Below, piece by piece: positions 33,915 through 64,000 of a stretch of 64,000 bases of DNA (within the stretch, counting starts at the first letter, position 1; each line of letters starts with the position of its first letter). Under the pieces are notes generated by a model. It was not told the DNA's origin and made no database searches. It saw nothing but the letters and a program-made list of their open reading frames with translations. Source of the stretch: Paracoccaceae bacterium (GTDB taxonomy: Bacteria > Pseudomonadota > Alphaproteobacteria > Rhodobacterales > Rhodobacteraceae); assembly GCA_020425125.1 (NCBI GenBank), contig JAGQRV010000030.1:21345-85344 (forward strand), read 5' to 3'. A program made the position numbers and the translations under genes.

Positions 33915-33953
33915 GCGAGGAACGGAGCAGGGGGACGGGGGGAGCCGAACGGA

Positions 33954-34691: not shown

Positions 34692-34732
34692 TGCCGACCG
34701 GCGTCAGCCGCCGCCGCTGCCCCGGGGGACTG

Positions 34733-36501: not shown

Positions 36502-36534
36502 AAAATGAGACGTGAAATCATAGGGTAGTCTGCC

Positions 36535-45272: not shown

Positions 45273-45318
45273 GCAAAAATATGCTTGGATGCGCTGCAGC
45301 CAATCGGAGAGGGGAGAG

Positions 45319-45902
45319 ATGCCGAAAATCGGGATGGAACCGATCCGCAGACGGGCACTGGTAGACGCGGCGATCGCAGAGATCGGCCGGACCGGCACGC
45401 TTGACGTGACGGTCAGCCAGATAGCCAGGAAGGCCGGGATGTCGAGTGCACTGGCCCATCACTATTTCGGCAGCAAGGACCAGATGTTCCTTTCGGCCAT
45501 GCGGGCGGTTCTGAACTCGTTCGGAACCGAAGTCTGTAGCAGCCTCCGTGGCTTGGCCGGTCACAAGGAGCGGATCCTCGCGGTCATCGGCGCGTGTTTC
45601 TCCGAGCAGAATTTCCGTCCGGAAGTGGTGGCCGCGTGGCTCAATTTCTATGTGCTGGCGCAGACCTCGCCCGAAGCGCGCCGGCTGCTCACGGTCTATT
45701 ACCGCCGGCTGAACTCGAACCTGGTGCACGACCTCCGTCCGCTGATCGGCACCCGCGCGCCGGGAACGGCGCGTGCCATCGCCGCACTGATCGATGGTCT
45801 CTACATCCGTCAGGCGCTGCGTGAAGAGAACCTGACCGGGGCCGCGAGCGTGGCTCTGGTGTCGTCCTATGTCGAATCTGCCTTGTCGCAGGAGGCCCGC
45901 CC

Positions 45903-45906
<4 letters not shown>
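45319..45906 (+). CDS. betI: TetR family repressor of choline genes, BetI
   Basis: The 195-residue protein begins [18 protein letters not shown] and has the TetR helix-turn-helix [20 protein letters not shown], with FGSKDQM following, both as in BetI. The rest is the helical ligand domain with [15 protein letters not shown]. BetI represses choline uptake and oxidation genes until choline is present. ATG 45319 has the strong site GAGAGGGGAGAG. Its stop overlaps the betB start by four bases. Confidence 0.92.
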
Positions 45907-47405
<1,499 letters not shown>

Positions 47406-47484
47406 TCGGCGCCGGCGGCGTTGCAGCAGGAAACGCGCCCGCAACGGCGGCGCGCGATCATGCTCGGCTCAAGGAGTGAGGGTG

Positions 47485-49143: not shown

Positions 49144-49174
49144 GCGGTCGATTGACAGGCTGAGGGGCGGAGCT

Positions 49175-49190
49175 AACATGCTAAAATGTC
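49175..49190. promoter_or_regulatory. Palindromic site 1 (AACATGCTAAAATGTC) over the GntR start codon
   Basis: Matches the 16-base consensus GACATGCTAACATGTC at 14 positions. The regulator's ATG (49186-49188) lies inside it, suggesting self-control. Confidence 0.6.
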
Positions 49191-49929
49191 GATGCCGCCG
49201 TCCAACGCCGTGCCGCATGACGGGAAGGAGCCGTCGCTCGAGCCGCTGTCGCTTTTCGAAGGCCCGCTGTCGAACCGCGTCTACCTCTCGATCAAGCGTG
49301 CAATCCTGTCGCTGGCCTTCCGCCCGGGAGAGGCACTGCGCAAGCAGGAGATTTGCGCCGCGCTCGGCGTCTCCCGTTCGCCGGTCTCAGATGCGCTGAC
49401 CCGGCTCGCGGGTGAAGGGCTGGTGCGCATCGTCCCGCAGGCCGGGAGTTATGTCGCGCGCTTTTCGATGGCCGAGATCCGCGAAGGCGCCTTCCTGCGC
49501 GAGGCGCTGGAACTGGCGGCGGTCGAATATCTGGCGCCGCGGATCACCGACGCCGAAATCGCCCGGCTCAACCGAATCGTCGTGGTGCAGCAGGCGCTGC
49601 TCGACAGCGGTGACCGCGAAGGATTCTACGAGCAGGACGCCGCCATGCACGCGATGATGATGGGATTTACTGGCTTCCGGCGTCTGGCCAGCCTTGCCGA
49701 GACCGCCTGGGTCCAGGTGGACCGGGCGCGGCGCCTGGTGCTGCCGGCGCCGGGTCGGGTCGAGGCGACGCTGGACGAACACCGCGCGATCGTCGCGGCG
49801 ATTGCCGCGCGCGACCCCGAGGCTGCGCGCGCTGCGCTCCGCACGCATCTGCGTCAGCTCCTGACCTATCTCGAGCCGCTCGAGCGCGAGGTGCCGGAAC
49901 TGTTCGATTCCGAATCTCCGACGGGCTAG
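49186..49929 (+). CDS. GntR family transcriptional regulator (FCD subfamily)
   Basis: The 247-residue protein has a winged helix with FRPGEALRKQEICAALGV and SRSPVSDALTRLAGEGLV (about residues 43-80) and an FCD domain with EQDAAMHAMMMGFTGFRRL, LDEHRAIVAAI and LRTHLRQLL, whose histidines would bind the metal. It stands at the head of the 49-64 kb catabolic region and a palindrome overlaps its own start; the same palindrome precedes three other units. Regulation of all four is therefore inferred. The start could be the second ATG two codons later. Confidence 0.88.
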   Translation: MSMPPSNAVPHDGKEPSLEPLSLFEGPLSNRVYLSIKRAILSLAFRPGEALRKQEICAALGVSRSPVSDALTRLAGEGLVRIVPQAGSYVARFSMAEIREGAFLREALELAAVEYLAPRITDAEIARLNRIVVVQQALLDSGDREGFYEQDAAMHAMMMGFTGFRRLASLAETAWVQVDRARRLVLPAPGRVEATLDEHRAIVAAIAARDPEAARAALRTHLRQLLTYLEPLEREVPELFDSESPTG

Positions 49930-49933
49930 GAGG

Positions 49934-50785
49934 TCAGAGCGTCAGGCGATAGAAGGTGTTCGCCGTCCCGCCGAAGACCGCGTCGCGACCAGTCTCGTCC
50001 AGCCCGTCCGTCAGCACCAATGCGGCATCGTGCCATTCGCCGTATTCGGCACGCAGCCGGCAGACCGGCCAGTCCGACCCCCACATCACCCGCTTGGCGC
50101 CGAACGCCTCGATCACATGGGCCGCCGCCGGGCGCAGCCCGTCGACCGTCCAGTCCGACGACGCTTCGGTCACCAGCCCCGAAAGCTTGCAGCATGCGCC
50201 GGTCTCGTCTGCCAGCCGTGTCATCCCGGCCGCCCAGCGGGCGAAGCCTTCGGCGTCGGAATGGTAGTCGCGGATGCGCGGCTTCATGCAATGATCGATC
50301 ACCACCCGCAGGTCTGGATACCGTGTCAGCAGCCGGTGAAAATTGTCCAGATGCTCCGGGAAGCCGAGCGCGTCGAGCGTCAGGTCGCGCTCGATCAGCG
50401 CCTCGAACGCCCACTGGATATCGTCCCGCAGCATCCAGTCGATATCGGGGATGTCCTGGATCATCGGCCGGACGCCCAGGAACTTGGGATCCTCGGCCAT
50501 CGCGTCAAGTTCGCGGAGATCGAGCGGATCCTCGAAGTCGATCCAGCCCACCACCCCGGCGACGCTCGGTTCGGTCGCGGCGATGCCGAGCAGGTAATGG
50601 CTCTCGGCGACGGTCGGTGCAGCCTGGACCAGCACCGTGTGGGTGATCCCGGCCGACTCGCGCGCGGCCGCGAGATCCTCGGGGCCGTAATGGCGCGCGA
50701 GAACCGGATCATCCATCGGCATCCAGCCGTAGTCGCCGCGTGCCGGATCCCAGTAGTGCAGGTGGGCGTCCACTTTCGGGCTCAT
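49934..50785 (-). CDS. Amidohydrolase family 2 protein, possible sugar-lactone hydrolase
   Basis: The 283-residue TIM-barrel hydrolase shows VDAHLHYWDPARGDYGWMP at the N-terminus (metal-binding HLH), VVIDHCMKPRIRD and RVMWGSDWPVCRL near the C-terminus. This is the COG3618 group, which contains L-fuconolactone and L-rhamnonolactone hydrolases. Its start overlaps the stop of the aldo/keto reductase by four bases, and together they would oxidise an aldose and open the lactone. Substrate is inferred from context only. Confidence 0.82.
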   Translation of the reverse strand: MSPKVDAHLHYWDPARGDYGWMPMDDPVLARHYGPEDLAAARESAGITHTVLVQAAPTVAESHYLLGIAATEPSVAGVVGWIDFEDPLDLRELDAMAEDPKFLGVRPMIQDIPDIDWMLRDDIQWAFEALIERDLTLDALGFPEHLDNFHRLLTRYPDLRVVIDHCMKPRIRDYHSDAEGFARWAAGMTRLADETGACCKLSGLVTEASSDWTVDGLRPAAAHVIEAFGAKRVMWGSDWPVCRLRAEYGEWHDAALVLTDGLDETGRDAVFGGTANTFYRLTL

Positions 50786-51807
50786 GTCGGCGCATCCTTT
50801 CGCAGAAGTCCCGCCGCTTTCAGATCGTCCCAGAGGCCCGCCGGGATCACCGCCTCGGCGGCGGCGAGATTCGCGGTCATCTCGGCCACGCTCTGGCCTC
50901 CGGGAATCACCGAAACGACCGAGGGATGGCGGAGCGGGAATTGCAGCGCCGCATCCGCCATCGCCACACCGTGATCGGCGCAAATCCGTGCGATTTCGGT
51001 GACGCGCCGCAGAACCGGCTCGGGCGCCGGATCGTAGTCGTAGGTCGCCTCCGGCGACGCGCCGCGGGCGAGGATCCCGGAGTTGTAGGGGCCGCCGATC
51101 ACGATGCCGATCCCGCGCGCCTGGCACAGCGGCATCAGGCTTTCCAGGGCCTCCTGCTCCAGAAGTGTGTAGCGTCCGGCAAGCAGGAACAGATCGAAAT
51201 CGCCCCGCTCCGCCAGCTGCCTGCAGACCTGCCATTCGTTCACGCCTGCGCCGAAGGCCGCTATGACGCCGTCACCGCGCAGCCGTTCCAGCGCGTGATA
51301 GCCGCCGGCCATCAGCTGGTCGACCTTTGCGTCGACATTCTGCCGGCTGCCATGGTTCGGCACGTCGATGTCGTGAACGTAGAGAATGTCGATCCGGTCG
51401 AGTCCAAGCCGCTCCAGCGAGAACTCAACCGACCGCATCACTCCGTCGAAGCTGTAATCGTAGATCTCCTTCCGCGCCGGCACATCGAACCATTTTCCGT
51501 GGCCGGTCCGGCCAGCTTCGGTCACCGGTTGCAGAAGCCGGCCGACCTTGGTCGAGAGCACATACTCGCCCCGCGGCTTGCCGCGCAGAAACCGGTTGAG
51601 CCGGGTCTCGGCGAGCCCGAGCCCGTAGAGCGGCGCGGTATCGAAATGGCGCACCCCGCCCGCCCAGGCACAGTCGAGCACCGCCTCCGCCTCGGCGTCG
51701 CTGATGGCACGGAAGAGGTTGCCGATCGGCGCCGAGCCGAAGCCGAGTTCGGTGAATTCAAGCCCGCCCGTGCCCCGCCGGTCCCAGTGCCGCGTTCGCA
51801 GTGCCAT
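50782..51807 (-). CDS. Aldo/keto reductase, L-fucose or D-arabinose dehydrogenase type
   Basis: The 341-residue protein has the aldo/keto reductase tetrad: Asp in HFDTAPLYGLGLAE with Tyr, Lys in YVLSTKVGR, and His in IDILYVHDID. The sequence GFGSAPIGNLFRAISDAEA and the C-terminal FPLRHPSVVSVIPGGQS fit the bacterial L-fucose/D-threo-aldose dehydrogenase branch. Predicted to oxidise an aldose to a lactone. Site 2 of the palindrome lies 17 bp upstream of its ATG. Confidence 0.82.
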   Translation of the reverse strand: MALRTRHWDRRGTGGLEFTELGFGSAPIGNLFRAISDAEAEAVLDCAWAGGVRHFDTAPLYGLGLAETRLNRFLRGKPRGEYVLSTKVGRLLQPVTEAGRTGHGKWFDVPARKEIYDYSFDGVMRSVEFSLERLGLDRIDILYVHDIDVPNHGSRQNVDAKVDQLMAGGYHALERLRGDGVIAAFGAGVNEWQVCRQLAERGDFDLFLLAGRYTLLEQEALESLMPLCQARGIGIVIGGPYNSGILARGASPEATYDYDPAPEPVLRRVTEIARICADHGVAMADAALQFPLRHPSVVSVIPGGQSVAEMTANLAAAEAVIPAGLWDDLKAAGLLRKDAPT

Positions 51808-51823
51808 GCTGCCTCCCTAGACT

Positions 51824-51839
51824 GACATGCTAGTATGAT
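51824..51839. promoter_or_regulatory. Palindromic site 2 (GACATGCTAGTATGAT)
   Basis: Matches the 16-base consensus at 13 positions. It lies between the divergent aldo/keto reductase (17 bp away) and the BtpA-family gene (62 bp away), so it could control both directions. Confidence 0.6.
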
Positions 51840-51900
51840 TTGCCTTGCGTGACAGCCGAAACCGCCTAGCCTGAGCGAAAAAGACAGGGAGGAGAGCCGG

Positions 51901-52716
51901 GTGACCGACCGCTTCGCGCGCCTGTTCGGCGGCACCAAGCCCGTGATCGCCATGGTCCACCTGGGCGCGCTGCCGGGCGCGCCGCTCCACGATGCCGCAG
52001 CGGGGCTCGACGGGCTGGTGGCCGGTGCGCGGGCCGACCTTCTGGCGCTTCAGGCGGCGGGCGTCGATGCGGTGATGTTCGGCAACGAGAACGACCGGCC
52101 CTATGAGTTCACCGTCGACACGGCGTCCACCGCGGCGATGGCCTATGTGATCGGCAGACTGCGTGCCGAAATCACCGTGCCCTTCGGCGTCAACGTGCTG
52201 TGGGATCCGATGGCGAGCGTGGCGCTGGCCGCCGCCACCGGGGCGGCCTTCGTGCGCGAGATCTTCACCGGCGCCTATGCCTCGGACATGGGGATGTGGA
52301 CGCCCGATGCCGGAAAGGCGATGCGCTACCGCGACCGGCTGGGGCGCGGCGATCTGCTGATGCTCTACAACGTCTCGGCCGAGTTCGCCGACAGTCTGGA
52401 TCGTCGGCCGATTGCCGACAGGGCGCGAAGCGCGGTGTTCTCCTCGATCCCCGACGCCGTGCTGGTTTCCGGTCCCATCACCGGCGAGCCTGCGGCGCTG
52501 AGCGACCTGCGTGCCGTGAAGGACGCGCTGCCGGCCGTGCCGGTCCTGGCCAATACCGGGGTGCGGCACGCCACCGTGGCCGAGGTCCTTGGCATCGCGG
52601 ATGGCTGCATTGTCGGCTCGGCCCTCAAGGTGGACGGCGACACCTGGAACCCGGTCGATCCCGAACGCGCCGCCGATTTCATGAACCGCGCCCGGGCGGC
52701 CCGGGGAGGATCGTGA
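51901..52716 (+). CDS. BtpA/SgcQ family protein
   Basis: The 271-residue protein is a TIM barrel with KPVIAMVHLGALPGAPLHD near residue 13, FGNENDRPYEF, VPFGVNVLWDPMASVALAAA, FVREIFTGAYASDMGMW and VLANTGVRHATVAEVL. These define the BtpA family, which includes E. coli SgcQ. Function is unsettled; the fold and phosphate-site glycines suggest action on a sugar phosphate or nucleoside. The GTG start follows AGGGAGGAGA. The next gene starts at its last base and resembles SgcX, the neighbour of SgcQ in E. coli. Confidence 0.88.
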   Translation: MTDRFARLFGGTKPVIAMVHLGALPGAPLHDAAAGLDGLVAGARADLLALQAAGVDAVMFGNENDRPYEFTVDTASTAAMAYVIGRLRAEITVPFGVNVLWDPMASVALAAATGAAFVREIFTGAYASDMGMWTPDAGKAMRYRDRLGRGDLLMLYNVSAEFADSLDRRPIADRARSAVFSSIPDAVLVSGPITGEPAALSDLRAVKDALPAVPVLANTGVRHATVAEVLGIADGCIVGSALKVDGDTWNPVDPERAADFMNRARAARGGS

Positions 52717-53816
52717 TGCGCGAGCGTCTGAAACGGGATCTGGTGGCGTTGATGCGCGTGCCGGGCCTGTCGGGGCACGAAGACCGGGTGCGCCGCGCCA
52801 TTCGCGACCGGCTGCCGCCGGGGCTGGGGCCGCGCGCCGACCGGATGGGCAATCTCTGGGTCAGCTTCGCCGGCGATCCGGCGGCGCCATCGGTCATGGT
52901 CTTCGCGCACATGGACCAGCTCGGCTTCGTGGTCCGCCGGATCGACGAGGACGGTGGCCTGCGGGTCGAACGGCTGGGCGGCGTGCCGGAGCGGGCGCTG
53001 GCCGCGCAACCGGTCCTTGCGATGGTGGGCGAAGGGCGGGACGTTCCGGGCATCATTGCCAACAAGGCCCACCATGCGACGCCGCCTGAGGAGAAATTCA
53101 CCGTCGTCCGGGTCGCCGATCTGCGCATCGATACCGGCCATGTCTCGCGGACCGACGCCGAGGCGGCCGGGCTCGGGATCGGAACGCCGATCGTCTACGC
53201 GCCGAACGTCATCGAACTGGCGGGGGACAGGATCGCGGGAACCGCGGTGGATGACCGCGCAGGATGTGCGGTGCTGATCGAGCTGGCGCGTGCGCTGACC
53301 GCCCGCGACGGCGGCCCGACCGTGCACCTCGTCTTCTCGGTGCAGGAGGAATTCAACCTGCGCGGCGCGGTGGTGGCAGCCCAGGCCCTGAAGCCTGACA
53401 TCGCGATCCAGCTGGACCTGATGCTCGCGACCGACACGCCGGACATGGCCGGGCGGGGCGACATGCGGCTCGGGGCGGGTCCGGGTATCAGTCACTATTC
53501 GTTCCACGGACGCGGCACGTTGAACGGGGTGATCCCGCACCCCGCCCTCGTGCAGCTCCTGAAGAACACCGCCCTCGACGAGGACATCCCGCTCCAGCAC
53601 AGCGCGCAGGTCGGGGTGCTGACCGACCTGTCCTACGTCCAGCTTGTCGGCGGCGGTGTGGCGAGTGTCGATCTGGGCTTTCCGATGCGGTATTCGCATT
53701 CGAGCCTGGAGATGTGCGACCTGGCCGACCTTGAGGCATTGAGCCGGTTGCTTCTCTGCGCACTATCCCGGATCGGTCCCGGCTTCCCGCTCGACCGTGA
53801 CGGAGACGGCGGATGA
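52716..53816 (+). CDS. M42 family metallopeptidase-like protein (SgcX-like)
   Basis: The 366-residue protein has the co-catalytic metal-site pattern of M42: FAHMDQLGFVVRRID (His), GTAVDDRAGCAVLIEL (bridging Asp), VFSVQEEFNLRGAVVA (Glu pair), and FPMRYSHSSLEM (His) near the end. The first site reads HMDQLGF where most members have HMDEIGF. M42 includes glutamyl and leucyl aminopeptidases, but SgcX-type members sit in sugar clusters and peptide cleavage there is unproven. It overlaps the BtpA gene by one base and the kinase by four. Confidence 0.88.
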   Translation: MRERLKRDLVALMRVPGLSGHEDRVRRAIRDRLPPGLGPRADRMGNLWVSFAGDPAAPSVMVFAHMDQLGFVVRRIDEDGGLRVERLGGVPERALAAQPVLAMVGEGRDVPGIIANKAHHATPPEEKFTVVRVADLRIDTGHVSRTDAEAAGLGIGTPIVYAPNVIELAGDRIAGTAVDDRAGCAVLIELARALTARDGGPTVHLVFSVQEEFNLRGAVVAAQALKPDIAIQLDLMLATDTPDMAGRGDMRLGAGPGISHYSFHGRGTLNGVIPHPALVQLLKNTALDEDIPLQHSAQVGVLTDLSYVQLVGGGVASVDLGFPMRYSHSSLEMCDLADLEALSRLLLCALSRIGPGFPLDRDGDGG

Positions 53817-55306
53817 CGGTTACCCTCGGGGTCGATATCGGTACCTACGGCTCCAAGGCGGTACTGGCGGACGCGGCCGGACGGATCTTCGCGCAGGCCG
53901 AGCGCCCACACGAGATGATCGTGCCGCGTCCCGGATGGGCCGAACACCGCGCCGAGGAGGACTGGTGGGGCGATTTCTGTGCCCTGACCCGGGAGATTCT
54001 GGAACAAAGCGGCGTCGATCCGGGCGCAATCGCCTGCGTCGCCACCAGTGCCATCGGCCCCTGCATGCTGCCGGTCGATGCGGCCGGCCGGCCGCTGATG
54101 AACGGCGTCCTCTACGGGGTCGACACGCGCGCTTCGGCCGAAGTCGCCGACCTGACCCGCGACATCGGTGCCGGGGTCTTGCAGGCGCGGTGTGGCAACG
54201 CGCTCAGCTCGCAATCGGTCGGTCCGAAGATCCTCTGGCTGAAGCGCAACCATCCGGACGTCTACGACCGCGCTGCGCATGTGCTGACCTCCAGTTCCTA
54301 TCTGGTGATGAAGCTGACCGGCGAGATCGTGATCGACCACTACACCGCAGCCAGCTTCGCGCCACTCTACGACATCGACCGTCAGGACTGGGCTGCGGAC
54401 CTTTGCCAGGGCATCGTCGATCCCGCGCGTCTGCCGCGGCTGCGCTGGTCCGCCGAGATTGCCGGGCAGGTCACCGGGGAGGCCGCCCGCGCCACCGGAC
54501 TGGCACCCAGAACGCCCGTGACCACGGGCACGATCGACGCCGCGGCCGAGGCGGTCAGCGTTGGCGTCGCCGCGCCGGGCGACATGATGCTGATGTACGG
54601 TTCGACCATCTTCATCATCCTGCTGACCGGGCAGCGACTCTCCAACCCGCGGCTCTGGTCGGCGCCCTGGCTTGCGCCGGGAGGCCATGCCGCCATGGCC
54701 GGGCTGGCAACTTCAGGCACGCTGACGCACTGGTTTCGCGATCAATTTGCGCGGGACCTTCCCCGCGGAGAGGCCTTCGGTCGCTTGGCCGCCGAGGCGG
54801 AGGCCTCGCCTCCCGGCGCCAACGGCCTGCTGCTGCTGCCGTATTTCTCCGGCGAACGGACACCGATCCACGATCCCGACGCCAAGGGCGTGCTGTTCGG
54901 GCTCAACCTCACCCATGGACGGGGCGACCTCTATCGTGCGCTGATCGAGGGGATCGCCTTCGGCACCCGCCACGTCACCGACACGTTCACCGAGGCCGGG
55001 GCGCGGCCGAGGCGTTTGCTCGCCGTCGGGGGCGGCGTGCAGAACCCGCCCTGGCTTCAGGCGACATCGGACGTGACCGGGCTTGATCAGATCGTCTGCA
55101 CGAACACGCTGGGCGCGGCCTATGGGGACGCCTATCTCGCCGCCGAGGCGGCGGGGCTGGAGCCGGACATCGCCGCCTGGAACCCGATTGCACGGTCGGT
55201 GACGGCGCGCAACCTCCCGGTCTACCAGAAGACCTATCCGCTGTTCCGCCGGCTCTACGAACAGACCCGGGACATTGCCGCGGATTTGTCGGACATTTCG
55301 GCCTGA
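53813..55306 (+). CDS. FGGY family carbohydrate kinase
   Basis: The 497-residue kinase shows the N-terminal phosphate motif VTLGVDIGTYGSKAVLAD, the middle VTTGTIDAAAEAVSVGVA and the C-terminal YFSGERTPIHDPDAKGVLFG and RLLAVGGGVQNPPWLQ. It is nearest to xylulokinases in pattern but has GTYGSK and VTTGTID in place of the usual GTSSTK and GGGDN-like segments, so the sugar may be another ketose or polyol. It is coupled to the M42 gene (ATGA) and ends at a perfect hairpin. Confidence 0.87.
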   Translation: MTVTLGVDIGTYGSKAVLADAAGRIFAQAERPHEMIVPRPGWAEHRAEEDWWGDFCALTREILEQSGVDPGAIACVATSAIGPCMLPVDAAGRPLMNGVLYGVDTRASAEVADLTRDIGAGVLQARCGNALSSQSVGPKILWLKRNHPDVYDRAAHVLTSSSYLVMKLTGEIVIDHYTAASFAPLYDIDRQDWAADLCQGIVDPARLPRLRWSAEIAGQVTGEAARATGLAPRTPVTTGTIDAAAEAVSVGVAAPGDMMLMYGSTIFIILLTGQRLSNPRLWSAPWLAPGGHAAMAGLATSGTLTHWFRDQFARDLPRGEAFGRLAAEAEASPPGANGLLLLPYFSGERTPIHDPDAKGVLFGLNLTHGRGDLYRALIEGIAFGTRHVTDTFTEAGARPRRLLAVGGGVQNPPWLQATSDVTGLDQIVCTNTLGAAYGDAYLAAEAAGLEPDIAAWNPIARSVTARNLPVYQKTYPLFRRLYEQTRDIAADLSDISA

Positions 55307-55316
55307 TCGCGGCGCC

Positions 55317-55332
55317 ATCCGGCTTTCCGGAT
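55317..55332. terminator. Perfect hairpin ATCCGG-CTTT-CCGGAT between convergent genes
   Basis: A six-base perfect stem with a four-base loop lies midway between the kinase stop (55306) and the esterase stop (55336) and would form in transcripts from both sides. No thymine run follows. Confidence 0.5.
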
Positions 55333-55335
55333 CAG

Positions 55336-56181
55336 CTATTGCGGCGCGTCAGCGGCCAGCGCGTCGGCCCAGTCGAGCATCCGGTCCACCCAGCCCGGCG
55401 GGATCATGTGCCCGCCCGGATGCAGCCAGAGGACGATCGAGCCCGACTCGCAGGAGGTCCAGTGTTTCTCCCAATCGCCGTCCGCCGCCAGATCCACGTC
55501 TGCCGCGCCCATGCAGCCATCCGTCTCGCGCCACACGTCGAGTCCTTCAAGGATATTGCCCTGATGGAACGGAAAGCCGTTGAACACCGCCTTGCGGCCT
55601 TCAAGCGGGACGGTGCGGTCGGTAAAGCCGTGGGTGTGGAACAGGTGCACCGGCCCGGCACAGCTGCGCGTCATCGGCTCCCAGAACCCGCCCGAAATCG
55701 GCGCCGCGCCGATGAACGCCTCGGGACGGGCACAAACGAGGTCCCAGACCATGGAACCGCCGCGCGAAAAGCCCGATGCAACCAGCCGATCGGTCCGGAT
55801 GTCGAACCGGGCCGCCGCATCGGCGATCACCGCTTCGAGAAAGAGGATGTCGTCGCGGCGCCAGTCGAAACCGTCGACCACGCCCCAATCCGTTCTGACG
55901 CCCTTCTCGGGCCAGTCGAGCCCGTCGGCGGCAATGACCGCATAACCCCGCGCCAGCATCGGCTCGACCAGCCCGGCACTGGCGATATCCGACCGTCCGC
56001 TGCCGCCATAGCCGTGCAGCCACAGCACCGTGCCCTGCGCGGCCACCCCCGGATCGGGCAACCGGATGAAGTAGCGGCCGCTCTCGATCTCACAGGGGGT
56101 CTCGACGCCGCCGCACTCCTGGGCTGCGGCTGCGGCGGTCAGGCATCCGGTCACGGCAAGGGCAAGGGCGAGCCGCTTCAT
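55336..56181 (-). CDS. Exported PHB-depolymerase-like esterase
   Basis: The 281-residue protein has a signal peptide (MKRLALALAVTGCLTAAAAA, cleavage before QECGG) and an alpha/beta-hydrolase core: LWLHGYGGSGRSDIAS (oxyanion region), LVASGFSRGGSMVWDLVC (nucleophile Ser near residue 147) and LWLHPGGHMIPPGWVDRMLD (His near the C-terminus). The family covers feruloyl and acetylxylan esterases and short-chain PHB depolymerases (LpqC-like). It starts right after the permease stop, so it belongs to the transport operon and may release sugars or acyl groups outside. Confidence 0.83.
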   Translation of the reverse strand: MKRLALALAVTGCLTAAAAAQECGGVETPCEIESGRYFIRLPDPGVAAQGTVLWLHGYGGSGRSDIASAGLVEPMLARGYAVIAADGLDWPEKGVRTDWGVVDGFDWRRDDILFLEAVIADAAARFDIRTDRLVASGFSRGGSMVWDLVCARPEAFIGAAPISGGFWEPMTRSCAGPVHLFHTHGFTDRTVPLEGRKAVFNGFPFHQGNILEGLDVWRETDGCMGAADVDLAADGDWEKHWTSCESGSIVLWLHPGGHMIPPGWVDRMLDWADALAADAPQ

Positions 56182-57111
56182 CTATTTCACCGCCCCGGCG
56201 GACATGCCCTTGATGATGTATTTCTCCAGCATCACCCCGATGACGATGAGGGGCAGGATCGCCGCGGTCGACAGCGCCGCCATGGACCACCAGTTGATCC
56301 CCTGGCTTCCGGTCTGGCTGGCCACCATCACCGGCAGGGTCTTGGCATTGGTCGAGGTCAGCAGGGCGGCGAAGAAGTATTCGTTCCAGGTCAGCACCAG
56401 GCACAGGATGAAGGCGGCGACGATCCCCGGCAGCGCGATCGGCAGCACGATGGTCAGGAACGCGCCCCAGATCGACAGCCCGTCGACCATCGCAGCCTCC
56501 TCCAGCTCCACCGGGATCGAGGCGAACTGATCGCGCATGATCCAGATCACGATCGGCAGCACCGTGAGCGTGTAGAGCAGGATCAGCCCGATCCGCGTGT
56601 CGAGCAGGCCAAGCTCGCGGTAGAGGACGAGGAAGGGCAGGGCCAGCACCACCGGCGGCAGGATGAGCTGCGACAGGAAGAAGAACGAGATGTCGGGATT
56701 ACGCATGAAGCCGAAGCGGTAGCGGAAGCGCGAGAGCCCGTAGGCCGCGCAGGAGCCGAGCGCGACGGCAAGCGCGGACGAGGCCAGCGCCGTGACCGCG
56801 GAATTGACGAACCGCGCCAGGAATTCCGCCCGGACGGTCGATTCCCGGCCGATCGTGTCGGGTGACAGGCCGAGCGACGACCAGCCGCGCCATTTCGGTG
56901 CGAAATCGACGAAGGGCACCATATTCCCCTGCATCACGTCGGGGGCGAGCTTGAAGCTCGTGGAGATGGTCCAGTAGATCGGAAACAGGCTGATGAAGGT
57001 CCAGAGGGCGAGGATGCCATAGATCGCGACGCGCCCCGCATACCATTTCACCCGGAACGTCCGGTCGGATGCGCTGTCGTGAAAGATCTGGGTCGGGGCG
57101 GTGTCGGGCAT
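56182..57111 (-). CDS. Carbohydrate ABC transporter permease, MalG/UgpE-like
   Basis: The 309-residue protein has six hydrophobic helices and the coupling loop ELEEAAMVDGLSIWGAFLTI with downstream VLPIALPGIVAAF, typical of the second permease of CUT1 sugar importers. It follows the first permease at one base distance and shares its operator-controlled promoter. Confidence 0.9.
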   Translation of the reverse strand: MPDTAPTQIFHDSASDRTFRVKWYAGRVAIYGILALWTFISLFPIYWTISTSFKLAPDVMQGNMVPFVDFAPKWRGWSSLGLSPDTIGRESTVRAEFLARFVNSAVTALASSALAVALGSCAAYGLSRFRYRFGFMRNPDISFFFLSQLILPPVVLALPFLVLYRELGLLDTRIGLILLYTLTVLPIVIWIMRDQFASIPVELEEAAMVDGLSIWGAFLTIVLPIALPGIVAAFILCLVLTWNEYFFAALLTSTNAKTLPVMVASQTGSQGINWWSMAALSTAAILPLIVIGVMLEKYIIKGMSAGAVK

Positions 57112-57112
57112 C

Positions 57113-58231
57113 TCAGTACCGGGGGTTCATCCAGCGGTCGACGAGCTTCATGAACAGCGTGATCGCGGCCACGATGCAGACGAGGTAGAACAGCGCCAGC
57201 ATGGTGCCATAGCCGACGTTGGAGCGGTCGCGGTATTCGCGGAAGATGAAGCTTGTCACGCTGTCGGTGGCCCCGCCGGGCCCGCCCGAGGTGACGTTGA
57301 TGATGATGTCGGCGAGCTTCAGCTTGAAGATGATCCGGATCAGGATCGCGGTGATCGAGACAGGCAGCATCAGCGGGAAGGTCACCTCCCAGAATGCGCG
57401 CCAGCCGGTGGCGCCGTCCACCCGCGCGGCCTCCTGCACCTCCTTGGGGATCGCCTGCAGGCCGGCAAGCAGCATGATCATCAGGAACGGGATGAAGGTC
57501 CAGGCATCCATGGCCATGATCGTCGCCCGCGCGATCTCGGCCGAGCCGAAGAAGGACGGATCGTCCCAGCCGAGCGTGCGCGCCAGCCGCGCCACCGGAC
57601 CGAAGCGGGTTTCCAGCATCGACTTGCCGATCATCCAGCTGACTGCCACCGGCGACAGCATCAGCGGCATCAGAAAGGCGACACGGAAGAACTTCCGTGC
57701 CCGGATCTCGCCGGCAAGGATCAGCGCAAGGCCGAAGGCGATGGCGTATTCCACCAGGATCGCGAGCGTGTACCAGACCATGTTGCGCAGCGCGTTCCAG
57801 TAGAACGGATCGTGCCACATCAACCGCAGGTTCTCGACGCCGTTGAATTTCTGGCCGTCGGGGGATGACAGGTTCCAGTCCGACATCGCGATCGACACCG
57901 CGAAGATGAGCGGGAACACCACCATGGCAACGACGAAGAGCGCGGCGGGAAGCACGAAAAGGCTCCGCTTGCCCTTCTCGCCGTAAAGGATCACCTGTGC
58001 GGCGCACAGGCAGACCGCAAAGACCAGAAAGGCGTAGAGTGCTGGCCGCCAGGTCGTGAACGGCAGTGCGATCCGCCCGGAATCCTGCATGGCCACGGCC
58101 AGGAAGGTGGCTGCAAAGACGGCGAAGGATGCCCAGACCAGAGTCCGCCCCAGCCGACGTCGGCCGGATGAGATCTCGTCGCTGGTCACGACATGAAGAA
58201 GGTCGCCCTCGTGGTGGCTGTCAGCGGACAT
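57113..58231 (-). CDS. Carbohydrate ABC transporter permease, MalF/UgpA-like, with extra N-terminal helices
   Basis: The 372-residue protein has the coupling loop EVQEAARVDGATGWRAFWEV near residue 255 and the C-terminal YGTMLALFYLVCIVAAITL of CUT1 permeases. About 70 residues at the N-terminus add two hydrophobic helices (LGRTLVWASFAVFAATFLA; ALYAFLVFAVCLCAAQVIL) before the usual first helix. The annotated ATG lies inside operator site 3, so either the message is leaderless or translation starts a little further in. Confidence 0.87.
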   Translation of the reverse strand: MSADSHHEGDLLHVVTSDEISSGRRRLGRTLVWASFAVFAATFLAVAMQDSGRIALPFTTWRPALYAFLVFAVCLCAAQVILYGEKGKRSLFVLPAALFVVAMVVFPLIFAVSIAMSDWNLSSPDGQKFNGVENLRLMWHDPFYWNALRNMVWYTLAILVEYAIAFGLALILAGEIRARKFFRVAFLMPLMLSPVAVSWMIGKSMLETRFGPVARLARTLGWDDPSFFGSAEIARATIMAMDAWTFIPFLMIMLLAGLQAIPKEVQEAARVDGATGWRAFWEVTFPLMLPVSITAILIRIIFKLKLADIIINVTSGGPGGATDSVTSFIFREYRDRSNVGYGTMLALFYLVCIVAAITLFMKLVDRWMNPRY

Positions 58232-58242
58232 GCTAACATGCT
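58227..58242. promoter_or_regulatory. Palindromic site 3 (GACATGCTAACATGCT) over the permease start
   Basis: Matches the 16-base consensus at 15 positions and covers the ATG (58229-58231) of the first sugar permease. Confidence 0.62.
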
Positions 58243-58354
58243 AGCCGCGCGAATCTCGGGCGGGAAGGCGAATTTTCGGGACCGGCCCGAAACCGGGGCA
58301 GGTTCCCGGGCCGGAGGCGCCGCGGCGCCTCCCGGCACGATGCGTCGGTCCGGA

Positions 58355-58570
58355 TCAGACCGCGGCGGCGGCTTCGCGGGCGACCCGCGGGATGTCAAGG
58401 CGCGAGAAGCCGAGATCGGCAAGGTCGCGGTCGCTGAGCACCGACAACTCGTCCGTCACCTGACGGAAGACGGCACGGCGGGCGTTCCATTCGACGAACG
58501 CCGCACGAAGCAGGTGCAGGCGGTCGGCAAGGCTATGTTCCAGATACTGGACGTCGTGGGCGAAGGCCAT
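58355..58570 (-). CDS. DUF1127 domain protein
   Basis: The 71-residue protein ends VTDELSVLSDRDLADLGFSR followed by LDIPRVAREAA, the DUF1127 signature (LSDRDLADLGFSR). Small DUF1127 proteins are arginine-rich factors that bind RNA or affect small-RNA control and phosphate or carbon use in some alphaproteobacteria. ATG 58570 has AGGAGA upstream. It lies alone between the permease operon and ccdAB. Confidence 0.9.
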   Translation of the reverse strand: MAFAHDVQYLEHSLADRLHLLRAAFVEWNARRAVFRQVTDELSVLSDRDLADLGFSRLDIPRVAREAAAAV

Positions 58571-58817
58571 GACTGTGTCTCCTGTGGTTTTGCGGCGGGT
58601 CCATCGCGCCGCTGACAGGAGGCAATGTATGGATATGCTGCAACTGCACAATGGACGGAACGGCAAGCCCGCCATGCCGATCCTGCAAGGCTGGAGTTCT
58701 GCCGTAGACCGCCGATTCTGGGAAGGACACAAGGCTCTGTCCCGATTTGCCCTCGAAATTACCCCGGAATTCCGGTAGGATTTGAGGCATGTCCAACGAG
58801 GCCCCTGGAGGTGTGAC

Positions 58818-59048
58818 ATGGCTCACCCGGCGAAGCGATCCACCAGCATGAGTCTGGACGCGGCGGTTCTCGACGAAGCGCGGCGGCTCGGGATCAACCT
58901 CTCGCAGGCCGCGGAACGCGGAGTTCTGGCGGCCATCCGGGCAGAGCGCGCGCGGCTCTGGAAGCAGGAAAATGCCGGCGCCGTTGCCGATTACAATTCC
59001 TTCATCGAGGCCGACGGCGTGCCGCTGGCCGAGTTCCGCAAGTTCTGA
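58818..59048 (+). CDS. ccdA: CcdA family antitoxin
   Basis: The 76-residue protein has a ribbon-helix-helix start (KRSTSMSLDAAVLDEARRLG, INLSQAAERGVL) and the C-terminal toxin-binding tail WKQENAGAVADYNSFIEADG then VPLAEFRKF, as in plasmid CcdA. It should bind and neutralise CcdB and repress the pair. The ATG follows CTGGAGGTGTG. Confidence 0.9.
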   Translation: MAHPAKRSTSMSLDAAVLDEARRLGINLSQAAERGVLAAIRAERARLWKQENAGAVADYNSFIEADGVPLAEFRKF

Positions 59049-59066
59049 CCCCGGACCGGACCTGCC

Positions 59067-59366
59067 GTGGCGGCGCAGTTCGACCTCTATCGGCTGAAGG
59101 GCGGCGGACTGGTCGTGGTGCTGCAAAGCGACCTGCTGGACGAGTTGCAGACGCGTGTCGTCGCGCCGCTCGTGCCGGCAACGGCGGTCCGGCGGGTGAT
59201 GCGCCCGCTCAACCCGTCCGTCACGCTGGGCGAGGCGACCTACCTGATCATGCCGCAGCTTGCCGCGACGCTCACGCTGGCGGAACTGGGCGCGCGGGCG
59301 GGTACCCTTGAAATGATGCGGGACGAGATCGTCCGCGCCATTGACGCGCTCCTCTCGGGCATCTGA
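59067..59366 (+). CDS. ccdB: CcdB family toxin
   Basis: The 99-residue protein matches CcdB in length and in AAQFDLYRL, VVVLQSDLLDELQTRVVAPL and YLIMPQLAATL. CcdB poisons DNA gyrase. The last three residues are SGI; in F-plasmid CcdB they are WGI and the Trp is needed for killing, so this toxin may be weak or act differently. The start is GTG, 18 bases after the ccdA stop. No integrase or transposase is nearby. Confidence 0.87.
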   Translation: MAAQFDLYRLKGGGLVVVLQSDLLDELQTRVVAPLVPATAVRRVMRPLNPSVTLGEATYLIMPQLAATLTLAELGARAGTLEMMRDEIVRAIDALLSGI

Positions 59367-59458
59367 AGGACCGGGCGGGGCCGCGGATCAGGCGGCCGCA
59401 TCCGAGTACCGGCCAGGGGCGCACCGGTCCGCGCGCCCCTGACGAAACCGGCGCGAGG

Positions 59459-61129
59459 TCAGGCGCCGATGCCGAGCGACTCCTTGTAGAGCTTGATCTG
59501 GCTGTCGCGGCCGATCTGGTCGGTGATCTTCTCCCAGGCGGCGGCGATCGCGTCCGCGGTTTCCTGCGCCGAGCCGTACTTGCCGGCGAAGCCCTTGGCG
59601 AGTTCGTCCTCGGCCACAGAATAGTACTGGAAGATGCCGGGGATCCGCGGCTCGATCGCGGCGTTCGGGTGATTGTAGCTGTCTTCGTTCGAGCCGAGAT
59701 AATCCTCGACGAAGGCAAGGTCGTAACCGGCCTCGACCCACTCGTCGAAGTTGAAGTGCGATTTCCGGTATGGCTGGAAGCCCGACGGATAGGCCGAGGT
59801 CCAGAGCGACAGGTCCTTTCCGCCCAGATGCGCGGCCGCCGACCATGCCGCCTTGCGCTTGGTCTCGTCGCCCGACACACGATTGGTGACGTAGATGCCC
59901 CAGCCGATATAGGCCATGTTCGGCGCGAAGTTCGGGTCGGGCGGGGTCTCCCACTCCTTCTTGCGCCAGTTGTAGACGCGGGTGGCACCGGGATTGATCG
60001 AGAAGCCGACCACGTCGCCCACGACCGAGGTGTCCGAGGTCCGCGCACTCGATCCGACATCGCCCCACCAGGTCAGCATCGACCCGGTCCCGGCAAGGAA
60101 CTGCTGGAAGGCGGTGGTGCCCGGATCGGCGTTGATCTGGTCCGACGGATAGGCCCCCGCCGCGATCAGATCCATCACGTCCTGGATCGCCTGTACCCAG
60201 GCCGGGTTGTTCACCAGCGGGGTCATCGTGTCCGGTTCGAACAGCCAGGCGGGCTCGCCGGGATATTTCGCATAGGACGCCGCGCGGTCCTCGAGGAAAT
60301 AGAAGCCGAAGCCGCCCCAGCCCTTCAGCGGGTCGAGGAATCCGTAGGCGGGAAGCCCGGTGAGCGGATCCTTCTGTCCCTTCACCTTCTTCGAGAACTC
60401 GTTGACCTGCTCCCAGGTCGACGGCGGTTCGGTCATCCCGGTTGCGGCGCTGATCGCCGCGTCGGTGAAATAGTCGCTGCGGTAGGCGAAGGTGTGGCAG
60501 TCGCCGTCGATCGTGACGCGGTAGAGCTTGCCGCCCCAGGTGCCGACCGGCGGCTGCAGGTAGCCGACATAGTCGCTCATATCGATCATCTTGGCGACCC
60601 AGTCGGGCATCTCGTCAAGAAGCCCGCGACCGGCCGTGTCGCCCTCGAACGGCGCGCCCATCTCGATCACGTCGAAATCGACCGTCCCGGTCGCGATCGA
60701 CTGCTGCAGCCGCGCGTTGTAATCCGCCTGCGCGAGGTCGATCCAGTTGATCTTGGCGCCGGTGTAGGTCTCCCATGGCTTCAGGAACCCGCGGAACAGC
60801 AGGTTGTGAAGATTCTGGTTGTTGAGCCCCATGAAGGTGAGCTCGACCCCGGCAAACTCGCCCTCCTTGACTACCTCCTTGGTGGGGCCAAGCGTCAGCT
60901 CGCCGACCTTCTGCCAGTCCGCGTCCGTGGGCGAGCCCATGCCGACGCCGGGGATCTTCAGGATCTCCGCGCGCAGCGCCGCCTCGTCCTGAGCCCAGGC
61001 GGGCCGCACCGAGATGCCGGTGAACACGCCGCCGACCGCCGACGCGGCGGTCGTCGTCGCGAGCCCCTGCAGCACCGAGCGCCGGCTCAACCGGGATCTC
61101 AGCATGTAGTCATAGAGTTCGGCCTTCAT
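59459..61129 (-). CDS. Carbohydrate ABC transporter substrate-binding protein, family 1, Tat-exported
   Basis: The 556-residue protein has a twin-arginine signal LSRRSVLQGLATTTA (about residues 14-28, cleavage near RPAWA-Q), then a family 1 fold with VELTFMGLNNQNLHNLLFRG, YNARLQQSIATGTVDFDVIE, GKLYRVTIDGDCHTFAYRSD and FLAGTGSMLTWWGDVGSSAR. It should bind the sugar ligand of the transporter whose permeases are at 56-58 kb and ATPase at 61.4 kb. At 556 residues it is longer than most. GAGGA precedes the ATG. Confidence 0.9.
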   Translation of the reverse strand: MKAELYDYMLRSRLSRRSVLQGLATTTAASAVGGVFTGISVRPAWAQDEAALRAEILKIPGVGMGSPTDADWQKVGELTLGPTKEVVKEGEFAGVELTFMGLNNQNLHNLLFRGFLKPWETYTGAKINWIDLAQADYNARLQQSIATGTVDFDVIEMGAPFEGDTAGRGLLDEMPDWVAKMIDMSDYVGYLQPPVGTWGGKLYRVTIDGDCHTFAYRSDYFTDAAISAATGMTEPPSTWEQVNEFSKKVKGQKDPLTGLPAYGFLDPLKGWGGFGFYFLEDRAASYAKYPGEPAWLFEPDTMTPLVNNPAWVQAIQDVMDLIAAGAYPSDQINADPGTTAFQQFLAGTGSMLTWWGDVGSSARTSDTSVVGDVVGFSINPGATRVYNWRKKEWETPPDPNFAPNMAYIGWGIYVTNRVSGDETKRKAAWSAAAHLGGKDLSLWTSAYPSGFQPYRKSHFNFDEWVEAGYDLAFVEDYLGSNEDSYNHPNAAIEPRIPGIFQYYSVAEDELAKGFAGKYGSAQETADAIAAAWEKITDQIGRDSQIKLYKESLGIGA

Positions 61130-61331
61130 CCGCAGTCCTCCCTGATGCCGCTCGCTTGGTCCCGCGGGCATGGTATGCATCCGGCGGGGCAGCGGTCTTG
61201 GTTGTTCCGAAGGCGATCGTCTTCCGAGGTGTCGCGAAGCGGTCCGCGCCCTCTCCGGCGCCGCACCGACGGCATGGACCCGCCGTCCGCGGGGACAGCT
61301 TTCCAGTGAAGCATCCCCCTGTCAAGCCGCT

Positions 61332-61347
61332 GACATGTTAGCATGTC
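61332..61347. promoter_or_regulatory. Palindromic site 4 (GACATGTTAGCATGTC)
   Basis: A perfect palindrome apart from the central TTAG, matching the consensus at 14 positions. It lies 63 bp before the ATPase start and about 200 bp from the divergent binding-protein start, in a 281-bp spacer that shows nothing else. Confidence 0.65.
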
Positions 61348-61410
61348 TGATCGTGGACAGGCTGCTCCGGCTCGGTTAAGCCTGATGCAGAGGAGCCCGA
61401 GGGAGACGGC

Positions 61411-62475
61411 ATGGCCGAAGTCGCGATTCGCGAGGTGCGCAAGGCCTATGGTGCACTCGACGTGATTCACGGCGTCGATATCGACATCGCCGACGGTGAG
61501 TTCGTGGTCCTTGTCGGCCCGTCCGGCTGCGGCAAGTCCACGCTCCTGCGCATGATTGCGGGGCTCGAGGGGATCAGCGGCGGGACCATCGCGATCGGCG
61601 GGCGGGTGGTGAACACGCTTGCCCCGTCGGACCGCGACATCGCCATGGTGTTCCAGAACTACGCGCTCTATCCGCACAAGACCGTCGCGGCGAACATGGC
61701 GTTCGCGCTCCGGATGCGGGGCATGGCGCGGGCCGAGATCGAGACGCGGGTGCGCCATGCCGCCGAGATTCTCGGCCTCGTTCCCTATCTCGACCGCTAT
61801 CCGCGGGCGCTGTCGGGCGGCCAGCGCCAGCGCGTCGCGATGGGCCGCGCGATCGTGCGCGACCCGCAGGTCTTCCTGTTCGACGAGCCGCTGTCGAACC
61901 TCGATGCCAAGCTGCGGGTGCAGATGCGCAGCGAGATCCGCGAATTGCAGCAGCGGCTCTCGACGACGACGGTCTATGTCACCCACGACCAGATCGAGGC
62001 GATGACCATGGCCGACAAGATCGTCGTGCTGCAGGGCGGGCGGGTGGAGCAGATCGGCTCTCCGCTGGAGCTTTACGACCGTCCCGCGAATGCCTTCGTC
62101 GCCGGCTTCATCGGCTCGCCCGCGATGAACCTGTTGCCGGGGAAGGTCCGCAGCGGCGGCACCGGACCCGCGGTCGAAGTCGAGGGCGCTGTCGTGCCGG
62201 CCACCGCGGCGGGGGCAATCGCCGACGGCCGCGAGGTTCTTCTCGGCATCCGGCCCGAGCACCTGAGGCTGGCCGAGCAGGGACTGCCGGCGGAAGTCGC
62301 CGTGATCGAACCGACCGGAGCCGAGATCCATGTCGTCGCCCGTGTCGGAGGTCAGGAGATCGTGGCGGTCTTCCGCGAACGCCATGTCCTGAAGGCGGGG
62401 CAGGCGATCCATCTCGCGCCCGACCCCGCGCAACTTCACATCTTCGACCAGAGGAGCGGATTGCGTCTTGGCTGA
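61411..62475 (+). CDS. Carbohydrate ABC transporter ATP-binding protein, UgpC/MalK-like
   Basis: The 354-residue protein has Walker [10 protein letters not shown] at residues 36-44, signature [18 protein letters not shown], Walker [15 protein letters not shown] and a C-terminal TOBE region ([15 protein letters not shown]). This is the CUT1 ATPase layout. It powers the permease pair at 56-58 kb. GAGGGAGA precedes the ATG. The GDSL hydrolase gene overlaps its stop. Confidence 0.92.
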
Positions 62476-63136
62476 CATCAACGGCGGACGCCGCCGCTTC
62501 ACCTTCCTGTGCTACGGCGACAGCAATACCCACGGCACCCGGCCGATGCGGCATCCCTCGGATCTGGCCCGCTATCGCGCGCACCGACGCTGGCCCGGCC
62601 GCCTCGCCACCGCGCTCAGCAGTTCGGCCAAGGTGATCGAGGCCGGCCATCCCGGCCGCACCACCGTGTTCGACGATCCCGTCGAGGGCGCGCACAAGAA
62701 CGGGCTGGCGATCCTGCCCGCGGTGCTCGAATCCCACCGTCCCGTCGACGTGGTGATCCTGATGCTCGGCACGAATGACGTGAAGCGGCGGTTCTCGGTC
62801 ACCCCCTGGGACATCTCGCGCGGCGTGGAGCGGCTGGTCCTGGCCATCGGGGCGTCGAATTGCGGCCGGGACGGAATGCCGCCCGGTGTCTTTCTCGTGT
62901 CGCCCGCCCCGATCATGGAGACCGGCTGCCTGGCGGAACAGTTCGAGGGCGGGGCCGAGAAGTCGCGCCGTTTGGCGGCGCATCTGGCCGAGGTCGCGCG
63001 TCTCCACGGCTGCGGGTTCCTCGATGCGGGCGCCCATGCCAGCGTCGACCCCGTCGACGGGGTGCACCTGTCGTCGGACAGCCATGCCGCCTTGGCCGAG
63101 GCGCTGGCCGCTGCGCTGCGGCCGCTGATCGACTGA
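62468..63136 (+). CDS. SGNH/GDSL hydrolase
   Basis: The 222-residue protein has block [16 protein letters not shown] (catalytic Ser in GDSN), block [15 protein letters not shown] and block [14 protein letters not shown] (Asp-x-x-His). No signal peptide, so it is cytoplasmic. Such enzymes remove acetyl or other acyl groups from sugars; in this operon it may deacylate an imported sugar. The start is TTG 62468, overlapping the ATPase gene by eight bases, chosen because it fits the conserved N-terminus. Confidence 0.85.
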
Positions 63137-63205
63137 CCACGCGCCGCGGCGCAGTCCCGCACGAATTGCGGGCGCAGGATGGAACGAGGGAAGGGAGGCC
63201 CCGAC

Positions 63206-63670
63206 ATGCTCAAAGGCATCGATCCGCGACTGAACGCCGATGTGCTCGGGGCGCTGCGCGCCATGGGGCACGGCGATGTCCTGGTGCTGGCGGACACCAA
63301 TTTCCCTGCCGACTCGATTGCCCGGCAGACCGTGCTGGGGCGGCTCCTGCGAATGGACAACCTGACTTCGGCCGCAGCCGCGCAGGCGGTTCTGTCTGTG
63401 CTGCCGCTCGACACCTTCGTCGACGATTTCGCCGCCCGCATGGAGGTTGTCGGCGAGCCGCAGACGGTGCCGCCGGTCCAGGCCGAGGTCCAGGCCGAGA
63501 TCGACGCCGCCGAAGGGCGCGCGCGGCCCATGGTCGGGGTCGAACGGTTCGCCTTCTATGACCGTGCGCGCGACGCCTATGCGGTGATCCAGACCGGGGA
63601 ACTGCGCTTCTACGGCTGCTTCCTGTTCCGCAAGGGCGTGGTCCCGCCCCCTGATTCCGTCTCTGCCTGA
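63206..63670 (+). CDS. fucU: RbsD/FucU family sugar mutarotase
   Basis: The 154-residue protein shows LNADVLGALRAMGHGDVLVL and ADTNFPADSIA, the RbsD/FucU signature with the catalytic histidine in MGHGD. The length and the C-terminal GELRFYGCFLFRKG favour the FucU (L-fucose mutarotase) side, which would fit the fucose-type dehydrogenase and lactonase pair upstream. ATG 63206 follows GAAGGGAGG. Confidence 0.82.
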   Translation: MLKGIDPRLNADVLGALRAMGHGDVLVLADTNFPADSIARQTVLGRLLRMDNLTSAAAAQAVLSVLPLDTFVDDFAARMEVVGEPQTVPPVQAEVQAEIDAAEGRARPMVGVERFAFYDRARDAYAVIQTGELRFYGCFLFRKGVVPPPDSVSA

Positions 63671-63680
63671 GGAGATTGCC

Positions 63681-64000
63681 CATGTCCGGTCCCGTCGTCA
63701 TCCTGGGTGTCTTCGTCGCCGATACCGCCTACCGCGCCGAGCGCCAGCCGCGCATGGGCGAAACGCTGCTGGGCCAGAGCTTCGTGCTCGGGCCAGGGGG
63801 AAAGGGCTCGAACCAGGCTGTGGCCGCGGCCCGCGCGGGGGCCGAAACGCACATGCTGACCAAGCTCGGCCGCGACACCTTCGCCGAGATCGCCCTGAAA
63901 ATCTGGGCCGAGGCCGGGGTGACCCCGGTCGTTACCCAGCACGCCGACAGCTATACCGGGGCGGCCTATATCTTCGTCGAGGCCGCGACCGGCAACAATG
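63681..64000 (+). CDS. PfkB/ribokinase family carbohydrate kinase, partial
   Basis: The visible 106 residues (the gene runs off the right edge) begin PVVILGVFVADTAYRAE and contain the PfkB signature LGPGGKGSNQAVAAARAGA. These enzymes phosphorylate ribose, deoxyribose, ketoses or nucleosides. GAGGAG precedes the ATG. It is the fourth gene of the ATPase operon. Confidence 0.85.

Follow-up and report, generated by a model that had tools for sequence, protein, structure and literature searches.

Known systems closest to the locus

Autoregulated regulator genes with leaderless mRNAs include lambda cI, expressed from PRM, and tetR of Tn1721, the protein families and operators of which are unrelated to those considered here. 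The present work concerns a 16-bp operator that recurs at four promoters of a sugar uptake and oxidation cluster, and the GntR/FCD regulator gene (gntR) starting at 49186 in the same cluster, in a 64,000-nt stretch of contig JAGQRV010000030.1 from a Paracoccaceae bacterium (GCA_020425125.1), hereafter the window. It is quite probable that this FCD-GntR protein controls the four promoters through an operator near AACATGYTARCATGTT, in the manner set out below. The nearest described case is acuR-acuI-dddL of Rhodobacter sphaeroides, a catabolic operon with a leaderless regulator gene, of which the mRNA starts at the AUG without a Shine-Dalgarno sequence, the −35 and −10 boxes stand directly 5′ of the ATG and an inverted-repeat operator overlaps the promoter; the same paper, in the portion compared, also names lambda cI from PRM and tetR of Tn1721 (PMC3017554). 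Our locus is alike in its predicted leaderless regulator gene, its boxes before the ATG and its operator overlapping the promoter. According to that portion, however, AcuR is of the TetR family, binds an operator of the form TAATAGAC-n6-GTCTATTA and serves a single operon (PMC3017554), whereas here we find an FCD-GntR protein, four promoters, a start codon within the operator and a structural gene (a permease) that is predicted to be leaderless too.

The FadR/FCD subfamily is described, in the sections compared, as having consensus TKGT/ACMA boxes, palindromic operators close to the regulator gene and within divergent regions, and extra half-sites 7–12 nt from the palindromes (PMC4494728). The window shares with it the FCD-type GntR protein and this placement of palindromic operators. 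A difference is that the third half-site here, 8 bp away, forms part of a predicted promoter and start codon. The canonical GT/AC boxes (TKGT/ACMA) are not present, the operator reading CATG-YTAR-CATG (matrix AACATGYTARCATGTT), which speaks against a typical member; since the same source also names subfamily members with other motifs (PMC4494728), the noncanonical operator leaves membership by fold intact.

A 2017 reconstruction of a Rhodobacteraceae bin contains an oxidative L-fucose (fuc) locus with predicted FucR sites, resembling ours in fucose dehydrogenase, dehydratase, COG0179 hydrolase, COG1028 dehydrogenase, ABC system and predicted regulator sites, as far as the text compared goes (PMC5507952). 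The family and motif of FucR are absent from that text, leaving its identity with the 49186 regulator undecided. No account of this regulon or of start-codon operators was found in the literature searched, mostly outside subscription papers and including the accessible text of PMC6946681 and PMC12340547.

Four operators confined to one cluster

The four operators start at 49175, 51824, 58227 and 61332, exactly where a sequence-only reading of this DNA had placed four 16-mers, and lie at the starts of transcription units as it had claimed. They are located over the start codon of gntR, between the aldo/keto reductase and BtpA genes, over the start codon of the first permease gene, and between the sugar-binding protein and ATPase genes. 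Its wording "near-identical palindromes" fits four matching 16-mers but is slightly generous, because pairwise identity is 12–14 of 16 positions in the better orientation and 5, 5, 5 and 7 of the 8 base pairs, in the order given, are symmetric. The search for random occurrences across the 4,018,432-base genome came out in favour of that reading as well, in that the strict pattern RNCATDYTARHATGNY matches these four sites and no others, and the reversed pattern has 0 matches.

Looser patterns discriminate less well. The core NCATRYTARYATGN, with at most 1 mismatch, occurs at 9 genome places, among which are the four operators, including all 3 mismatch-free places; its reversed control also gives 9 places, and discrimination is therefore provided by the stricter patterns only. 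With at most 2 mismatches, NACATGYTARCATGNY has 16 forward matches in the genome against 9 of its reversed control, other contigs included, and all of the 0-mismatch matches are inside the window, the sole 1-mismatch match outside being C33:128385 (11.0 bits). Scanning the window alone with 3 mismatches yields 8 strand matches against a shuffle mean of 2.92, weak evidence given that 8 was reached in 4 of 100 shuffles. This mild enrichment, and the equal number of control places for the loose core, would suit chance palindromes in AT-richer promoter DNA; that explanation has a negligible probability, chance being ruled out by the independent matrix described below, genome-wide exclusivity and conservation across genera. 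The four operators are genuine, lie where they were said to lie and go well beyond what chance would produce. Three other places were left out of the regulon: C33:128385, which is 5′ of a nitrilase-like gene (named by eye), C109:2 (13.1 bits), set aside provisionally, which is at the edge of a contig and 3′ of an operon that looks unrelated, and C90:2292 (9.8 bits). For a join between C26 and C109, the ends were compared for shared stretches of 15–100 bases, and none was found.

The probable regulator and the conservation of its sites

The gene at 49186..49929 (+ strand) encodes a protein with an N-terminal GntR winged helix (Pfam GntR, 7.3e-17, 61.2 bits, cut-off 27) and a C-terminal FCD domain (Pfam FCD, 1.3e-28, 100.3 bits, cut-off 24.3). 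Among 149 genomes of the same family, 45 have a match at E 1e-30 and 32, own genome included, reach at least 45% identity. A site with at most 4 mismatches is present near the start in 22 of 30 orthologue upstream regions, compared with 607 of 20,000 random 150-nt pieces from the same loci. Loci L055 and L071 (no upstream sequence) and L070 (a 37% paralogue) had been dropped. From 28 of these 30 regions, all of other genera and with the window excluded, we derived a symmetrised matrix with the consensus AACATGYTARCATGTT; L066 and L068 (6 mismatches each) were omitted from training, the matrix was seeded with the consensus of the earlier finding, and a few training sites were off register. Applied to the window, the relatives' matrix ranks the operators 1–4, at 24.3 bits (operator 1, 49175..49190, +), 23.9 bits (operator 3, 58227..58242, −), 23.9 bits (operator 4, 61332..61347, +) and 21.8 bits (operator 2, 51824..51839, +), with an 11-bit gap to the fifth-ranked place (10.3 bits), while the best place in 20 window shuffles scored 15.1.

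Sites also accompany the regulator from genome to genome. RNCATDYTARHATGNY sites occur in 27 of 32 genomes with an orthologue (56 sites; reversed control 3) but in 2 of 32 without one (3 sites; reversed control 8), the gntR share of this co-occurrence being partly by design since RNCATDYTARHATGNY was drawn from gntR sites in the same genomes. By hand tally, about 21 of the 56 sites are at gntR, about 23 at cluster genes (aldo/keto reductase–BtpA, sugar-binding protein–ATPase, permease 1, MR/MLE dehydratase and GH95) and about 12 at unnamed genes. The targets that recur in relatives are the aldo/keto reductase–BtpA and sugar-binding protein–ATPase intergenic regions and the first permease, and comparison of the same loci in related genomes, which had been proposed as a check, reveals sites conserved across genera. 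Elsewhere in the class, a homologue from a different family (L122) carries a site of 21.4 bits.

The sequence comparisons thus establish the motif, its restriction to the cluster and the fact that it is conserved together with regulator and targets, and a cognate FCD-GntR regulon of four promoters is well supported by them. The earlier proposal that one FCD-type GntR protein controls separated units and its own gene gains support from the matrix, the co-occurrence and the shared targets. A different regulator might bind the sites, with gntR merely a neighbouring target: the operator is unlike the canonical FadR-subfamily boxes, binding by this regulator is itself a prediction, and the site is missing from a few genomes that encode a distant homologue. 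We regard this as very improbable, as the sites follow the GntR orthologue across genera and gntR itself carries the site in most loci despite varying neighbour genes. Three results nevertheless weigh against a simple cognate pairing: 3 of the 11 distant orthologues (45–58% identity) have no site of 13 bits, leaving 8 that do; 4 of 6 same-genus genomes have no gntR homologue at E 1e-50; and the other 2 have a 46% homologue with no good site in the fetched loci. From the same-genus results, the window cluster was either lost in sister species or acquired.

Operator, promoter and start codon in one element: a predicted fusion

At gntR, the window reads TTGACA-N16-TAACAT-N6-ATG, where the predicted −35 box TTGACA (49152..49157, +) stands 16 nt 5′ of the predicted −10 box TAACAT (49174..49179, +), which is a third half-site overlapping operator 1, and the start codon at 49186 occupies operator positions 12–14. 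The right half-site of the operator supplies the ATG at both gntR and permease 1, with TARCAT 6 nt 5′ of it; for permease 1 (MalF-like; 57113..58231, −) the start codon at 58231 is inside operator 3 and the hexamer is TAGCAT. From the spacing of TARCAT and TTGACA before the operator ATG, leaderless mRNAs are predicted. The acuR-type leaderless layout, with −35 and −10 boxes spaced for a start at the AUG and no Shine-Dalgarno sequence, was looked for in the window and is present there.

This arrangement is shared by close orthologues, defined by at least 58% identity, which comprise 21 relatives and the window; 2 have no upstream sequence and 19 have a site of at least 13 bits. In all of these 19 the operator ATG is in frame, although its distance from the homologous first residue varies from −24 to +33 nt, always a multiple of 3, and in all of them an in-frame stop lies at operator positions 0–2, 12 nt upstream of the ATG. 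Four Shine-Dalgarno tetramers were sought 4–16 nt upstream of the ATG, and none is present in any of the 19. TARCAT occupies the −10 register in 16 loci and TTGAC[A/T] is at exactly 16 nt from this register in 12, the mean −35 match being 4.84 against 2.39 for shuffled sequences (0 of 500 shuffled sets as high). A later in-frame ATG is absent before residue 28 in 14 of the 19. In the 20th close locus, L058, the operator is degenerate (below threshold), yet the in-frame ATG in the same register and TTGACA are retained.

Of 2 hits in a promoter scan of 49100–61500, the gntR promoter is the best, with 10 of 12 consensus matches, but the number of hits is not above that in shuffles (2 vs 1.4). The pattern TTGAC-N17..19-TANNNT-N6-ATG occurs at two genome places, gntR and one on C74. 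Of 22 genomes with an orthologue, 10 contain the composite TTGAC-N17/18-TARCAT-NNTARNATG, always at gntR; 0 of 22 without one do so, and the reversed control gives 0.

Alternatively, the regulon could be real while gntR and permease 1 have conventional leaders, with transcription starting upstream, translation beginning at the operator ATG or at a start codon shortly after it, and the operator acting as a roadblock over the start codon. CATG is always in the motif, so that an ATG at positions 12–14 is inherent to it, and only 3 of the 19 close orthologues are free of any later in-frame start before residue 28, some ATG, GTG or TTG being available in 16; the window gntR itself has a further ATG 6 nt downstream of the operator ATG. 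Together with the distant orthologues, where the operator ATG is in frame in just 1 of 8 with a site, these observations weigh against leaderless starts. A leadered arrangement nonetheless seems unlikely in view of the 19 of 19 in-frame ATGs despite variable spacing, the in-frame stop just upstream, the lack of the sought tetramers and −35/−10 boxes spaced right for a start at the ATG, and because operators at other genes follow the same frame rule in only 12 of 65 cases. We thus favour predicted leaderless mRNAs for gntR and permease 1, which would make this a compact natural case of one short element serving as operator, −10 box and start codon. Leaderless translation is thinly sampled in proteobacteria, and about 20 conserved predicted cases with built-in regulation could be a good test bed. 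Overlapping operators 8 bp apart, that is three tandem half-sites, were also seen at several promoters (L115:11618-11641, L042:6773-6796 and L048:9339-9362).

The permease site belongs with a split transporter operon. Twelve loci with both the sugar-binding protein and permease 1 genes were compared: in the 5 with a site at permease 1, window included, the gap between the two genes is 186–3288 bp (1227 in the window), whereas in the 7 without a permease site it is 53–147 bp. As the site is present only where the gap is wide, a separate promoter appears to go with the split of the operon. Of the 5 distinct loci that carry this site, 4 have the operator ATG as the in-frame permease 1 start; against the rule, the site in G077 is out of frame. 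Start-codon operators, operator placement that depends on the promoter, and a permease site confined to split transporter operons were not part of the sequence-only reading. Between permease 1 and the sugar-binding protein gene, 58355–59366 of the window holds a small DUF1127-like gene and a toxin-antitoxin pair resembling CcdA/CcdB (58818–59048 and 59067–59366, + strand; all by eye), and relatives have different genes in this place. In L059, a gene for a Peripla_BP_4 sugar-binding protein has a 19.3-bit site (17656) at its start, and a CcdAB-like pair lies nearby at 18661–19187.

Divergent promoters and proposed mechanism

Operator 4 lies between two outward-facing predicted −35 boxes, TTGACA on the side of the sugar-binding protein gene (61320..61325, −; 6 nt from the operator) and TGGACA on the ATPase side (61354..61359, +). 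This geometry recurs on each side in 7 of 8 loci, with TTGAC[A/T] 6 nt from the operator towards the sugar-binding protein gene and TGGACA 5–7 nt from it towards the ATPase gene; the exception is L112, whose site is degenerate. By arithmetic, the operator is centred at about −50 for both predicted starts. Such a position between outward −35 boxes makes activation possible, and activation or a mixed effect seems as plausible there as repression. Operator 2, whose position between the aldo/keto reductase and BtpA genes recurs in relatives, overlaps a possible aldo/keto reductase −10 box (TAGCAT), and the BtpA −35 box is poorly conserved.

At gntR and permease 1, where operator, −10 box and start codon would form a single unit (TARCAT-N6-ATG) and the mRNA would begin at the AUG, bound regulator could block RNA polymerase, resulting in autorepression and permease repression. 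For the aldo/keto reductase, an operator over the likely −10 box would also give repression, and at the sugar-binding protein/ATPase promoters, with the operator centred some 50 bp 5′ of each predicted start, the outcome might be activation, a mixed effect or repression. Either the sugar that is taken up or one of its first products may be the inducer, the best candidate being an L-fucose-like (L-galacto/D-arabino) sugar, lactone or acid. More tentatively, and with somewhat less than even confidence, we suggest that one 16-bp element acts in two opposite modes according to layout, repressing gntR and permease 1 and activating the sugar-binding protein and ATPase genes, with tandem 8-bp half-sites forming operator, promoter and translation start at once. 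A well-defined regulon and motif can be put forward for an FCD-GntR group found in many genera of one bacterial family.

Regulon content and the likely sugar

Next to gntR are genes for an amidohydrolase of sugar-lactonase type (49934..50785, −), closest to the NCBIfam L-fucono-1,5-lactonase model (191 bits, cut-off 400), and for the aldo/keto reductase, a presumed sugar 1-dehydrogenase (50782..51807, −), which stays beside GntR in relatives. Across operator 2 are a BtpA/SgcQ family protein (51901..52716, +), an M42 peptidase-family protein (SgcX-like; 52716..53816, +) and an FGGY sugar kinase (53813..55306, +). A PHB-depolymerase-like esterase (55336..56181, −) lies downstream of the permeases, with MalG-like ABC permease 2 at 56182..57111 (−). 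The longest open reading frame for the sugar-binding protein (SBP_bac_1) spans 59459..61180 (−), and its true start is likely near 61129, at an ATG preceded by a Shine-Dalgarno-like stretch. Beyond operator 4 follow the UgpC/MalK-type ABC transporter ATPase (61411..62475, +), an SGNH-hydrolase-like open reading frame (62468..63136, +; by eye) whose homologues occupy the equivalent position in L114, L119 and L120, a FucU/RbsD-type mutarotase (63179..63670, +; 84 bits, cut-off 141), and the first part of a PfkB-type sugar kinase (63681..64000, +; by eye, approximate start) cut by the contig end, PfkB also following FucU in relatives. The poorly understood BtpA/SgcQ and M42/SgcX proteins would thereby be tied to a sugar-oxidation pathway. 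At E 0.01, no solved structure is related in sequence to BtpA, and no stated substrate was found in the SgcQ/BtpA and sgc literature searched.

The regulons of relatives add an MR/MLE dehydratase, a FAH hydrolase, an SDR, a GD_AH dehydratase, a xylose-isomerase-like protein and another PfkB, and in G086 a site is present between sugar-binding protein and GH95 genes. All family types of the oxidative L-fucose set (dehydrogenase, lactonase, dehydratase, SDR and FAH) are thus within relatives' regulons, and the gene content looks like an L-fucose-like oxidative (non-phosphorylating) pathway. The exact sugar is uncertain because no regulon protein reaches an NCBIfam equivalog cut-off, and because the FAH and GD_AH proteins are closest to the 2,4-didehydro-3-deoxy-L-rhamnonate hydrolase and galactarate dehydratase models, respectively. 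These points weigh against the L-fucose-like reading, as does the own genome, in which SDR, FAH and dehydratase homologues are on C43, where no site scores above 8.2 bits over the 24.5 kb read. A search of the own genome for the relatives' xylose-isomerase-like protein gave no match, an empty result that proves little.

On C43, which is 40,536 bases long, the FAH-type gene is cut at one contig end and resumes at the other, the 4 missing residues being matched by exactly 12 nt. C43, with its SDR, FAH and dehydratase homologues, may therefore be a circular 40.5-kb replicon. Within the window, a second sugar-acid cluster at 30732–37275 contains IlvD-like and GD_AH dehydratases, an SDR and a 3-hydroxyisobutyrate-dehydrogenase-like gene (names mostly by eye) and its own FCD-GntR gene at 36535. 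Its GD_AH dehydratase (34733–36235) shares 58% identity with the relatives' regulon copy and was rejected as a regulon member, having its own adjoining FCD-GntR gene and no site. Unlike in relatives, where a GD_AH or MR/MLE dehydratase gene usually adjoins gntR, in the window a betI-betB-betA-like choline oxidation set (45289–49143, by eye) precedes it.

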